Shown here piece by piece: positions 14,392 through 60,186 of a DNA stretch of 64,000 bases. The position numbers were made by a program, and so were the translations under genes. Numbering within the stretch: position 1 is the first letter of the stretch; every line of letters starts with the position of its first letter. The DNA comes from Pseudobdellovibrionaceae bacterium (GTDB taxonomy: Bacteria > Bdellovibrionota > Bdellovibrionia > Bdellovibrionales > Bdellovibrionaceae): NCBI GenBank assembly GCA_019637955.1, contig JAHBUS010000001.1, forward strand, positions 186,001 through 250,000, in the 5' to 3' direction. Below the pieces are notes generated by a model. The model ran no database searches and was not told the origin of the DNA. It was given only the letters and a program-made list of their open reading frames with translations.

Positions 14392-15688
14392 TCAAAGACC
14401 CCGGCTCATCTTCGGGCGCGGGTTTGGGCGTGCCGCCCGTTTTGTTTGGACGGTTCGCCAAGACAAAGAGCGTTCGCAGCATCGCGCCCAAAACGAAAAT
14501 CAAGTAGTACCCGGCCGCCGTTTCGTCATACGAGGACAGCAGCTGCCCGCCGATAACGGTGCCGATCAAGATCGCCGTGGTCTGAAAGAAGTTGTTCCAG
14601 ATCAAAAGCTGAATTTTGTCTTTGTTCGGAAGCTCGGAAAACATCACCAAGCCCCAGGCCACTTCAAAAAGACCCCAGAAAAATCCCGAGATGCCTTGCA
14701 GAAGCACGGACTCCAGCGTGCGCGAAACAAAAAACCACAAAGCCGGGAGCGGCGACATCCCGAGCGCCCCGATAAAGAGAATGCGGCGCACGCCGAACTT
14801 CTCGATCCATTTGCGAGCCATCAAGAGTGCGAAGATCTTGCCAAAGAACAGGGCCATTTGCGTGGCCATAAAACTCAGGTAATCGAACTTGAGTTTGACG
14901 AGCAAAAATGGCGTGACGAACGAGCTTGAAATGTAAATCGCGCAGTTGAACAAAAACATGAAGGTCAGATCGCGGCGCGCCTGCGCGTTGTCTTTAAAGA
15001 CGCCCCAGGTTTTTTTTAAGAACGTGAGCCCGCGCATAACGTCGAACGGATTGCGCCGCCCCTCGCCGATGGCAGCGTTCTGGACCAGCTGCTCTTGATA
15101 CTCAATCGCCTTGTGCGCGCCCAGAAGGTACACCGACAAACAGCGCGCCAAGAACGCGACTAAAAATGGAAGCGCGTAAGCCGCGGGTCCCACGTTTCGC
15201 GACTCCACGTTGTGAAGCAAAACACCCGCGAGCAAAAGGCCCATGATCGTTCCGTACTGCGTGATCTGGCCGCGAAACGCGAAAAAGCCGGGGCGCTCTT
15301 CGTTGGGAACCAAAAAGCCCATCCAGTAGTTCCACACCGCGCCGCCCGAGTACGAGCAGGCCCAATAACACCCGATCAAAGCAAAAATGGTGATCGGCCC
15401 GGCCTTGTTGGTCATGGCGGTGATCATCAGTGCGAACAAAATCAAAGATTGCAGGGAGCAGACCAACAGCACCCAGCGTTTGGGCCGTGGCCACCTCGAA
15501 AACAGAAAGGGAGTTGCCGTTTGCAGAGCGGCGCCCATCATCATCGGCAGACCCACGACAAGGCCCGCGACGACTTCGCCCATGCCTTTGGAGATGGCGT
15601 AGGCCGCAAAAAAAGATTCTCCAGCCCCGATCATGAGGCTGGAGAAATAGGCTTCGATATAACTGATTTTTGGGGACTTAGTTCTCAC
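14369..15688 (-). CDS. MFS-family transporter
   Basis: 439 residues, GTG start within a GTGA overlap with hppA. There are about 12 hydrophobic segments in two groups of six with a cytoplasmic loop around 215-240. The N-half has the M-G-A-G-E-S-F entry and a short basic loop [10 protein letters not shown]. No substrate-specific motif was recognised. A similar permease type (DUF-like MFS with S-Y-I-E-A-Y-F at the N-terminus) occurs in Bdellovibrio-like bacteria. Translational coupling to hppA suggests that transport is driven by, or balanced against, the ion gradient made by the pyrophosphatase. Confidence 0.8.
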
Positions 15689-17751
15689 CCACCGATAGTC
15701 GCGATCAATTGCGCGATCAGCAGAGAAACGACCGACATCACTTTGATCAAGATGGCGATACCAGGACCCGAGGTGTCTTTGAACGGATCGCCCACGGTGT
15801 CACCGATAACGGCCGCTTTGTGAACTTCGGAACCTTTTTTGTGACCGGGGATGCCACCTTTTTCGATGAATTTCTTGGCGTTATCCCAAGCACCACCCGC
15901 GTTGGCCATGAAGAGCGACATGGTCGCGCCGACAGCCAAAGCTCCGGCGAGCATCCCCGCCAAGGCTTGAGGGCCCATCACGAAACCAACGACCACGGGC
16001 GAAACCACCGCGATCAAACCAGGCAGAATCATTTCGGTCAAAGCCGCTTTGGTCGCGATGTCCACGATCTTTGCGGGCTGGGGCTCGGCTTTCGACTCGA
16101 GCAAACCGGGGATCTCGCGGAACTGGCGCGCGATCTCTTGAACGATTTTTTGAGCCGCGCGGCCGACCGCCATCATCGTGGTCGAACCGACCAAGAACGG
16201 CAGAACCGAACCGATCAGAATCCCGATCAAAACGCCCGAAGACGTCAGTTCGAGAGACATTTTTGCCAGACCTTTGATCTCACGGACGTGATTCACTTCC
16301 ATGTTAAAGGCCGAGAACAAAGCCAAAACCGTGAGGATCGCCGAACCGATCGCAAAACCTTTGCCGATCGCCGCTGTTGTGTTTCCAACCGCATCGAGTT
16401 CATCGGTGATGTCGCGAACGTCTTTACCAAGACCGCTCATTTCCGAAATCCCGCCCGCGTTGTCGGCGATGGGGCCGTAAGCATCAACGGTCATGACAAC
16501 CGCGGTGCCCGCGAGCATCCCGACGGCCGAGAGGGCAATGCCGTAAAGACCCAAAGCACGGTCCGCGATGTAGGCCGCGATCACAACGATCGCGATCGGA
16601 ATCGCGGTGGATTCCATACCGACAGCCAAACCGCGGATCACGCCGGTCGCAGCGCCCGTGATGTTGGCTTCAGCCACTTGGCGGATGGGTTTCATCGCCG
16701 TGTAGTACTCGGTGATCAAACCGATCAAAGCACCGCCGAACGCGCCCGCCGCCAAAGCGACCGTCACGGACTGCGAAACGTCCCAGAGCGGGAGCAAGAC
16801 AGCCGCCGCGATGGTCAAAAGAATGGGAGGCAAGATGAGAGCATTACGCAAAACAACCGAAGGCGACATGTTGGAAACCAAACGCGCCAAGAAGATCACC
16901 ACGATCGAGATGATCATGCCCAAACCCGAGAGGAGCAGGGGCAAAGCCACCGCGGTCAAACGCGTGGTCGCTTCGTCGCCGCCGGTCACCAGACCCGAGA
17001 AGGCTTGAATGTTGACGGTCAAAGCAATCGCCATCGCCGAAACGATCGCGGCCACCATCGACTCGTAGATGTCAGCGCCCATACCGGCCACGTCACCGAC
17101 GTTGTCACCAACGTTGTCGGCGATCACGCCCGGATTGCGCGGATCATCTTCGGGAATGCCTTGAACGACTTTACCGGCAATGTCGGCACCGACGTCAGCG
17201 GCTTTGGTGTAGATCCCGCCACCGATCCGCGCGAAGAGCGCGATCGAGCTTGCGCCCACGGCGAACGAGTGAAGAATGGTCGAGATTTGATTCGACTCGC
17301 GGAAGGCCACATAAAGAGCGCCCAAACCGACGAGACCCAAGCCCGCCACCGAGAAGCCCATCACGCCGCCGCCATCAAGGGCGACGAGCAGCGATTTTGC
17401 GCGCGAGCCGGTGAACGCGGCCTGCGTGGTGCGAACGTTGGCGTAAGTCGCCGCTTTCATGCCGAAGAAACCGGCCAAGAGGCTCAAGATCGCGCCGAGC
17501 AAGAAGCAGAGCGCCGCCGTCAAACCGAGCGCGAAGAACAGCGCCACGCCCACAACGACCGAGTAGATCGCCAAGACTTTATATTCACGAACCAAGAAAG
17601 CCATCGCGCCTTCGCGGATGTAGCCGCCAATGCGGTTCATGGTTTCGTTACCGGTGGGCTGAGCTTTTACGCGCAGGTAAAGTCCAAGGGCCACGATCAA
17701 ACCGATGATTCCGGCCAAAACCGGGGTCATGAGAAGCGTCTCTGTCGTCAT
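15685..17751 (-). CDS. hppA: K+-dependent membrane pyrophosphatase
   Basis: 688 residues from ATG 17751, with about 16 membrane helices. Pyrophosphate-site motifs are intact: [45 protein letters not shown], and the C-terminal [10 protein letters not shown] plus [12 protein letters not shown]. The residue after G-N-T-T is Ala (G-N-T-T-A-A), as in the K+-dependent subfamily; K+-independent pumps have Lys there. It couples PPi hydrolysis to H+ or Na+ export; which ion is not decided here. The start region is covered by the structured leader at 17752-17834. Confidence 0.95.
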
Positions 17752-17834
17752 ATGTCTGTGAACTCCACGGGATGAGTACATCCCTCTAAGGTTTTGCGCA
17801 CCTTCGGTGCGACTAACTTAAAGAGTTCACAGAC
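17752..17834 (-). promoter_or_regulatory. Structured 5' leader of hppA (candidate three-way-junction RNA)
   Basis: In the hppA mRNA sense a perfect 12-bp outer stem joins GTCTGTGAACTC (from 17823-17834) to GAGTTCACAGAC (from 17754-17765). The stem ends two bases before the ATG, and its 3' arm includes the GAG of the only Shine-Dalgarno-like GTGGAG. Enclosed are two hairpins: CGCACC-GAA-GGTGCG (17797-17811) and GGGATG-TACT-CATCCC (17769-17784). A competing pairing of CTCTTTAAG (17817-17825) with CTTAGAG (17784-17790) would open the outer stem end. The architecture is that of a translational switch; no known riboswitch class was recognised. Confidence 0.55.
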
Positions 17835-17873
17835 TTACGAGAAACGATGGGGGCTGTCAATGAACCAGAGAGG

Positions 17874-18854
17874 CTACAGAAACAGGTTTCGGATGCGGTT
17901 GGCCAAAGAGGGCTCGATGATCTTCTCTTCGTGCAGTTGGAAGAAGAGCGTTTCGAGCTGTCTGCGTAAAGAATCAGCAGAATCACCATGGTTGCGAACC
18001 ACGTGATCGAGCTCATCGGCCACGCGCACGATCTGAGCAAATTCATTGATGTCAAAACCGCGCAGACCCGCCGGGTAGCCAAACCCATTAAACTGCTCGT
18101 GGTGCTGGGTGATGATCGATTTGACGATCTCCGACACGACGATGCTTTTTTCATCCAAGATCTCGAGGCCCTTTTGACCATGATCATAAAGGAGCTGGCG
18201 GTCGGCCGGATTCAAGGCCAACGGGTCATGAGCCGAGGCGCTCACCCGGGCCGGAAGCCGCGCCAAGCCGATATCATGCAGCAAGGCGCCCATCGCCACT
18301 TCGGTCAGGATCTTGTTGGTCGAATAGCCGATGCCGAATGAGATCAACACCGCGAGGCTGCTGACGTTGACGGGGTGCTTGTGAAAGTCGGTGCCTTTGT
18401 CCGAAAATTCCATCAGGCGGCGGAACGCCTTTTTGCGGATGGGTGAAATGTTCTCGAGCACCGAATCGATCAAAACGATCGTGATCTCGTTCAAATTTCC
18501 CATCAAGGCTTTGACCATCGCCGAGTCGTTGGCTTGAAAGGTGCTGGTCAAAATGGCTTTGGCCGAAACCACGGCCATGTTTTTTTGCGTGACGGGATCG
18601 GGGTGCTCCACCAGCGCCTGCAGCCGCTTGGCGACGTACATAACGAAGGCTTTGTAGTCCTCTTTGCGGATCCAAAAGTTGGTGACGTTGCCGTCCAAGA
18701 GCTGAGCCAGACGCTGGCTTTCGAGCGTGCCGCCTTTTTTGCGGTAACGGATGACTTTTTTATTGAGCGGCAGATTCAGGTAGAGATCAAAAGTGATGGC
18801 CCGCTCGGCCTCCAGATCCAGACTTTGAATGGGAACGTAATTTTGCAGTTCCAT
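17874..18854 (-). CDS. HD-GYP domain phosphodiesterase-like protein
   Basis: 326 residues, soluble. The first 150 are an unrecognised sensor-like domain. From about 155 the HD-GYP core follows: H160-P-V, L-L-H193-D194-I-G-L, H251-H252-E253 and G-F-G-Y-P-A-G-L-R-G with D280 after it. The usual Lys in HD-I-G-K is Leu, but metal ligands and GYP are complete, so cyclic-di-GMP hydrolysis is plausible. It starts 16 bases after the LysM gene ends and precedes hppA on the same strand. If co-transcribed, the hppA leader would be an intergenic element. Confidence 0.88.
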   Translation of the reverse strand: MELQNYVPIQSLDLEAERAITFDLYLNLPLNKKVIRYRKKGGTLESQRLAQLLDGNVTNFWIRKEDYKAFVMYVAKRLQALVEHPDPVTQKNMAVVSAKAILTSTFQANDSAMVKALMGNLNEITIVLIDSVLENISPIRKKAFRRLMEFSDKGTDFHKHPVNVSSLAVLISFGIGYSTNKILTEVAMGALLHDIGLARLPARVSASAHDPLALNPADRQLLYDHGQKGLEILDEKSIVVSEIVKSIITQHHEQFNGFGYPAGLRGFDINEFAQIVRVADELDHVVRNHGDSADSLRRQLETLFFQLHEEKIIEPSLANRIRNLFL

Positions 18855-58928: not shown

Positions 58929-59208
58929 TGAAACCCCCTTGATGAATTCAGTTTGCGGGATTTCGCGGGGTGTTCGAATTGACAAAAGTGAGCGAGGACG
59001 TCTCAGAATGCGGCAAAAAGCGCCGTCACTGCGGCGAAACGAGACAAAACCGCGTTGCCTCCCCTTGAACCGGGTGCTACTTTTTGAGGGTGAACGCGCT
59101 CTGATATAGGTTCAGGATTGGCTGAACGTCTCTACCGACTCCCCTGAAGTGTTGACTATCGGAATGCCGAACAATTGAAACAGACGACTGCTCAATTGAG
59201 GTATTTTG

Positions 59209-60186
59209 ATGCAAGCCCCGCAAGTGGCCCCCACAACTGACAACAATCACTTTGGCCTTGGTGTTCTCTTCGTCGCTCTCGGCTCGGCCAGCTACGGCAT
59301 GCTTTCGACCGTGGTGAAACTCGCCTACGAAAAAAACTTCACCACGGGTGAAGTGGTCACCTCGCAATTTCTTTGGGGTGTGCTTTGTCTCTGGGTTCTG
59401 AATCTGGTCTTTTCAAAACGAAGCGATCGGCCCACCCGGCGGGATGTCTGGAATCTCATGTGGGCCGGTGCCCCTTTGGGTTTGACCGGGATTTTCTATT
59501 ACTCGTGCGTGCGCGACATCAGCGCTTCGATCGGCGTCGTTTTGCTCATGCAATCGGTTTGGATGGGCGTGGTGGTCGAATCGGTACAGAGCCGGCGCCG
59601 GCCCGGCGCTCTTAAGATGATCGGCGTGATCTTGGTTCTCGCCGGGACGGTGCTGGCGACGGATGCCCTGAGCGGTGACCATCATCTCAGCGTCATGGGC
59701 GTGGTGTTCGGTCTTCTTTCGGCGGTGTCTTACACGTGGACGCTCTTTGCTTCGAGCAGCGTCGGGGCCCACCTCACCTCCTTGCAGCGAAGCCAGCACA
59801 TGGTCCGAGGCGGCGCCGTCTTGGCCCTGCTCTTTCTTTTTGTCTTTCAAGCCCTCCCCTACGCTTTGCAAACGCCCTCGCCCGTTGATGGATTGATTCC
59901 GAACCGGGTCTTCAGCTTTGACATTGTCTTCACCTATGGGCTCTTCGTGGCGCTCTTTGGAACCGTGATCCCGCCGCTCATGCTCAACCGGGGCTTTCCC
60001 GTCGTCGGTGTCGGCCTGGGGAGCATCATTTCTTCGATCGAACTTCCTTGCGCGGTTTTGATGGCCTACCTTCTTTTGGGTGAGACCGTAAACGCCCTTC
60101 AAGGCCTCGGCATCTTTTTAATTCTGGCCGCGATTTTCATTTTGAACTTCAAATTGATTGCTCCCCAAAAAAGGACCACCGCATGA
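59209..60186 (+). CDS. EamA/DMT-superfamily permease
   Basis: 325 residues from ATG 59209 (GAGG upstream). Ten membrane helices in two EamA repeats: repeat 1 has L-G-S-A-S-Y-G-M-L-S-T, G-A-P-L-G-L-T-G-I-F-Y-Y; repeat 2 has V-F-G-L-L-S-A-V-S-Y-T-W-T and L-P-C-A-V-L-M-A-Y-L-L-L-G-E. It exports or imports a small metabolite; substrates in this family are hard to predict. It overlaps the start of a decayed RibD-like gene by ATGA, so a riboflavin- or pteridine-like metabolite is a weak guess. Confidence 0.88.
   Translation: MQAPQVAPTTDNNHFGLGVLFVALGSASYGMLSTVVKLAYEKNFTTGEVVTSQFLWGVLCLWVLNLVFSKRSDRPTRRDVWNLMWAGAPLGLTGIFYYSCVRDISASIGVVLLMQSVWMGVVVESVQSRRRPGALKMIGVILVLAGTVLATDALSGDHHLSVMGVVFGLLSAVSYTWTLFASSSVGAHLTSLQRSQHMVRGGAVLALLFLFVFQALPYALQTPSPVDGLIPNRVFSFDIVFTYGLFVALFGTVIPPLMLNRGFPVVGVGLGSIISSIELPCAVLMAYLLLGETVNALQGLGIFLILAAIFILNFKLIAPQKRTTA

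Follow-up and report, generated by a model that had tools for sequence, protein, structure and literature searches.

Within the window, i.e., the entire 64,000-nt stretch of DNA analysed, the membrane pyrophosphatase gene hppA lies downstream of a LysM-HD-GYP gene pair. The hppA product falls into the Pfam family H_PPase and exceeds the cut-offs of both NCBIfam NF001961 (sodium-translocating pyrophosphatase) and TIGR01104 (V_PPase); judged from its sequence, the identity of the gene is secure. Homologues align from residue 1 at the ATG at 17751-17749 (MTTETLL here vs. MFSESLL in relatives), which makes the in-frame ATG at 17781 an unlikely start. No terminator-like site was found between the HD-GYP-like gene and hppA, which makes read-through transcription into hppA plausible. 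The two neighbouring genes are as follows.

15685-17751, reverse strand: hppA, membrane pyrophosphatase (Pfam H_PPase, E 1.2e-239), with its ATG at 17751-17749
17874-18854, reverse strand: upstream gene with an HD domain (HD_5), HD-GYP-like, on the same strand as hppA

The hppA leader carries a perfect 12-bp inverted repeat, GTCTGTGAACTC/GAGTTCACAGAC, with a spacer of 57 nt. As RNA, the repeat forms an outer stem closing a three-way junction, which holds two small hairpins and is made up of the following elements.

17754-17765, reverse strand: 3' arm of the outer stem, GAGUUCACAGAC, including three bases of the GGAG
17763-17766, reverse strand: Shine-Dalgarno-like (SD-like) GGAG, 11 nt before the hppA ATG
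17769-17784, reverse strand: perfect 6-bp hairpin GGGAUG-UACU-CAUCCC
17785-17790, reverse strand: 3' side of the inner 6-bp helix, pairing with 17817-17822
17797-17811, reverse strand: perfect 6-bp hairpin CGCACC-GAA-GGUGCG
17817-17822, reverse strand: 5' side of the inner helix, UUUAAG, pairing with 17785-17790
17823-17834, reverse strand: 5' arm of the outer stem, GUCUGUGAACUC, overlapping the -10 element and the predicted transcription start

A first-pass annotation of this DNA had described the perfect 12-bp outer stem (17754-17765 with 17823-17834) and two further perfect 6-bp hairpins (17769-17784 and 17797-17811), and all three proved to be present. Its statement that the 3' arm takes in the only SD-like bases has to be corrected: the GGAG stands 11 nt from the ATG, and a second SD-like string, AGAGGG at 17782-17787, adjoins the in-frame upstream ATG without a spacer. 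The pairing it had put forward as an alternative fold (17817-17822 with 17785-17790) also exists, but mostly as a part of the minimum-energy structure, and its competition with the outer stem covers only about 3 nt. The minimum free energy of the leader is from -40 to -45 kcal/mol, which none of 200 shuffled sequences reached, and the z-scores against shuffled controls are -6.4 for 17740-17850 and -6.75 for 17750-17836.

How unusual such a fold is in its own chromosome was judged against 423 leaders whose upstream intergenic DNA measured 60 nt or more, taken by rough gene calls from 800 kb of the same chromosome. The hppA leader ranked second by z (-6.85) and fifth by raw energy. It ranked first for the longest perfect stem joining the region from -130 to -35 with that from -25 to -1, with 12 bp, a length found in none of 2,115 shuffled controls, among which 11 bp occurred once. 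Of perfect 12-bp repeats whose arms stand 30-100 nt apart, the 800 kb contain four, and all but that of hppA are in coding DNA. A 12-bp stem by itself could thus arise by chance somewhere in the genome, the whole structure being less likely to do so; the hppA leader exceeds a typical leader, yet a single case singled out from a whole genome may still owe its stem to chance. The leader with the strongest fold among the 423 (z of -13.5; L234, G000:C1:665061-665145, in the same genome outside the window) belongs to a pyruvate phosphate dikinase-like gene, identified by eye from its translation. It contains a perfect 29-bp palindrome with a 3-nt loop and includes GTGCCTGGCAC, itself a palindrome, with 14 copies on both strands in the 800 kb.

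Small GC-rich hairpins directly upstream of starts are common, with 28 in the 800 kb, and their density in noncoding DNA is twice that in coding DNA. The CGCACC-NNN-GGUGCG hairpin in particular has 10 occurrences in the genome, most of them just before genes in short leaders or intercistronic gaps, vs. 3 for a reversed control pattern. To judge from this recurrence, the CGCACC part of the fold, at least, seems to be an ordinary leader hairpin. Copies, with gene names taken from translations, lie between rpsL-like and rpsG-like genes in the same genome and, in two other genomes, between groES-like and groEL-like genes (L189, G058:C53:7067-7081) and before a sucB-like gene (L186, G044:C1:1008520-1008534), where the hairpin could serve in mRNA stabilisation or processing.

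Conservation was followed through 66 genomes of the family, the source being the sole member of its genus among them. A copy of hppA is present in 61 of the 66, with at most 82% identity to that of the source. The 57 other family hppA leaders were collected and folded; neither the outer stem nor the hairpins were seen in any of them, and none had a z below -3.7. A covariance model built from the single sequence and run over the 66 family genomes plus 62 loci reached significance with the query alone; the remaining matches were weak (E 0.5-8), several of them being the CGCACC hairpin, besides the query's opposite strand. The check suggested by the first-pass annotation, a covariance search of hppA leaders for conserved stems, thus has as its outcome 0 of 57 folded leaders with the stems and only the query at significance. 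Homologous leaders without conserved stems, which the annotation regarded as speaking against its proposal, are what was found as far as the available relatives go. A homologue of the HD-GYP gene directly precedes hppA in only a few relatives (L004, L028 and L038), and the leaders of these three lack the stems. No second copy of the element was detected by DNA search in its own genome, 291 genomes of the phylum, plasmids and phages, the search returning short chance matches, some of which were again the CGCACC hairpin. The inverted repeat thus appears to be lineage-specific, with one genome as its only place of occurrence. Among the relatives, two members of genus g4 (hppA leaders L009 and L018) each carry an extra hairpin of their own (CCTTTTCCGACAAATCGGAAAGG and CTCCGGTGACCCCGGAG, respectively) between the conserved promoter and the SD; their sister genomes have none, indicating that hppA leaders gain hairpins lineage by lineage.

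The hppA leader matched no Rfam family at either gathering or relaxed thresholds, the best weak match being Acido-Lenti-1 on the other strand with 15.5 bits (cut-off 37), in agreement with the earlier impression that it resembles no recognised riboswitch class. No report of an hppA riboswitch was found in the literature searched. Elsewhere in the window, a purine riboswitch match at 59082-59178 on the forward strand scored 42.1 bits against the Rfam gathering score of 37 and precedes an EamA-like transporter gene at 59206-60186.

The relatives do share a promoter pattern. Of the 57 other family hppA leaders, 53 have TTGAC no more than 130 nt from the start, where composition would predict 6.6, and 45 of the 53 have TA 17 or 18 nt further on, mostly as TAnnnnT; the leaders compared are related, so these counts are not independent, and several genera share the pattern. 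The corresponding elements in the source are listed below.

17855-17860, reverse strand: -35 element TTGACA, its TTGAC being that of the 53 of 57 other family leaders
17831-17837, reverse strand: -10 element TAAGTCT, after a 17-nt spacer, fitting the TAnnnnT of the relatives
17822-17826, reverse strand: predicted transcription start zone, placed about 6-9 nt downstream of the -10 element

The -10 hexamer matches TATAAT at 2 of 6 positions and was not called by a plain consensus scan. Moreover, TTGAC was not enriched among crudely predicted leaders of the same genome (108 sites vs. 93 for the reverse complement), so the promoter argument is drawn entirely from the family comparison. Because of the conserved position of the -35 and -10 elements, transcription of hppA is predicted to start near 17825, either inside the 5' arm (17834-17823) or on its inner border. 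A transcription start inside the element was the other observation that the first-pass annotation held to speak against a switch, and the putative start near 17825, although deduced with a weak -10, corresponds to it.

The position of the 5' end has a sharp effect on the predicted fold. According to partition function calculations, RNAs beginning at or upstream of 17828 form the outer stem with at least 93% probability for nearly all its pairs, and the predicted unpaired probability of the SD region is 0.00-0.05, being about 0 when the RNA begins at 17830 or further upstream. With 5' ends at 17827 or later, the outer stem drops to at most 3% and the SD region is unpaired at about 0.66, both SD values being means over 17762-17765, which is shifted by one base relative to the GGAG (17763-17766). 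When shortened RNAs were folded directly, the stem was likewise present from 17830 and absent from 17827. In these models, the predicted start sits just on the open side of the threshold, and a 5' end 2-3 nt further upstream would bring the stem back. A general release of the SD upon shortening was not seen in the hppA leaders of relatives: the median gain in SD accessibility of family leaders shortened to their own start was 0.06, with the hppA leader described here sixth of 53.

A comparable arrangement is known from phage T4. In the leaders of gene e (lysozyme) and I-TevI, a late promoter lies inside the 5' strand of a stem that sequesters the ribosome-binding site; for gene e, the long early transcripts are silenced by the stem, and transcripts from the late promoter, which are devoid of its 5' portion, are translated well (PMC3014915). 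The hppA leader shares with gene e, by prediction, an SD hidden in long transcripts initiated upstream and an own promoter in the 5' strand giving short transcripts without the stem. It differs in belonging to a chromosomal housekeeping gene without sequence relation or homology to the phage gene. The T4 structure is a stem-loop with a measured effect, whereas that of hppA is a junction whose start and effect are predicted.

Applied to the present locus, the T4 gene e mechanism would be the simplest one that uses all parts. Both the putative promoter and the start region of hppA are overlapped by the inverted repeat. Messages reading through from the LysM-HD-GYP pair would carry both arms and fold the 12-bp stem, which would hide the SD bases and leave these messages poorly translated for hppA. 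In comparison, mRNA from the gene's own promoter would begin inside the 5' arm, form no stem and be translated. The analysis shows the stem, the match to the conserved promoter, the lack of an intrinsic terminator-like site and the predicted threshold of the fold, and from these we infer the exact start site, the occurrence of read-through and the difference in translation. Our preferred explanation, held tentatively and at somewhat less than even chances, is a lineage-specific arrangement like that of T4 gene e, which silences only the read-through mRNA from the upstream HD-GYP operon. Against it stand the occurrence in one genome only, with no relative keeping the stem even where the HD-GYP-hppA order is the same, the poor -10 and the lack of a general SD gain upon shortening in relatives. 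Of the translational switch proposed in the first-pass annotation, the SD-sequestering stem survives and is predicted to block initiation when the transcript has both arms. The ligand-sensing part is not supported: no homologous leader has the stems, Rfam gave no match and the conserved promoter predicts a start in the 5' arm.

The main rival, nearly as likely as the T4 gene e-like reading and a serious possibility in its own right, is a neutral or merely mRNA-stabilising inverted repeat combined with ordinary small leader hairpins and devoid of a regulatory role, with the repeat having arisen in this lineage by chance or local template switching. The restriction to a single genome, the four 12-bp repeats with 30-100 nt spacers per 800 kb, three of them in coding DNA, the abundance of small GC-rich hairpins before starts and the recurrence of the CGCACC hairpin in other leaders all agree with it; the precise coincidence of the arms with the -10/start zone and with the SD does not, nor does the first rank among 423 leaders for stems reaching the start region. 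An element acting on the level of DNA, with the arms as regulator binding sites overlapping the -10 and the start region, is unlikely. One arm does overlap the -10 and, as DNA, the repeat is perfect on either strand, but neither arm is a palindrome in itself, no other exact arm copy is present in the genome, and the count with one mismatch allowed is near that of the control (16 vs. 11). Very unlikely is a remnant of a small mobile element (MITE-like), for which the 12-bp terminal inverted repeats (16 of 18 when extended), the 81-bp unit and the TA-like flanks might be taken, since the unit is single-copy, with none further in the genome, the 291 phylum genomes, the plasmids or the phages.

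A translational riboswitch sensing PPi, K+, c-di-GMP or another ligand is highly improbable. With the translational riboswitches among the Rfam cis-regulatory RNAs the hppA leader does have in common a junction, here three-way, closed by an SD-containing stem; unlike them, it comes from a single genome, with neither a conserved aptamer among relatives nor an Rfam match. Moreover, the start is predicted inside the 5' arm, and a closing stem of the full 12 bp would be in the off state with no ligand present. The c-di-GMP riboswitch RNA of the related predator Bdellovibrio bacteriovorus, merRNA (PMC3627812), is likewise a structured RNA, but a stand-alone one rather than an hppA leader, and the Rfam c-di-GMP models do not match the hppA locus. 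Least probable of all is a ligand- or protein-sensing RNA limited to the genus of the source, acting through whatever junction remains once transcription begins within the 5' arm, or else as part of a longer, unmapped transcript.

Overall, a local block on read-through messages seems a better description of the hppA leader than a novel riboswitch sensing a ligand. Should the comparison with T4 gene e hold, the locus would represent a chromosomal, housekeeping case of start-site-dependent translational silencing, by which a gene is uncoupled from the preceding operon without a terminator. Before a strong fold in a leader, close to the start codon, is named a riboswitch, it should be compared with the position of the promoter.
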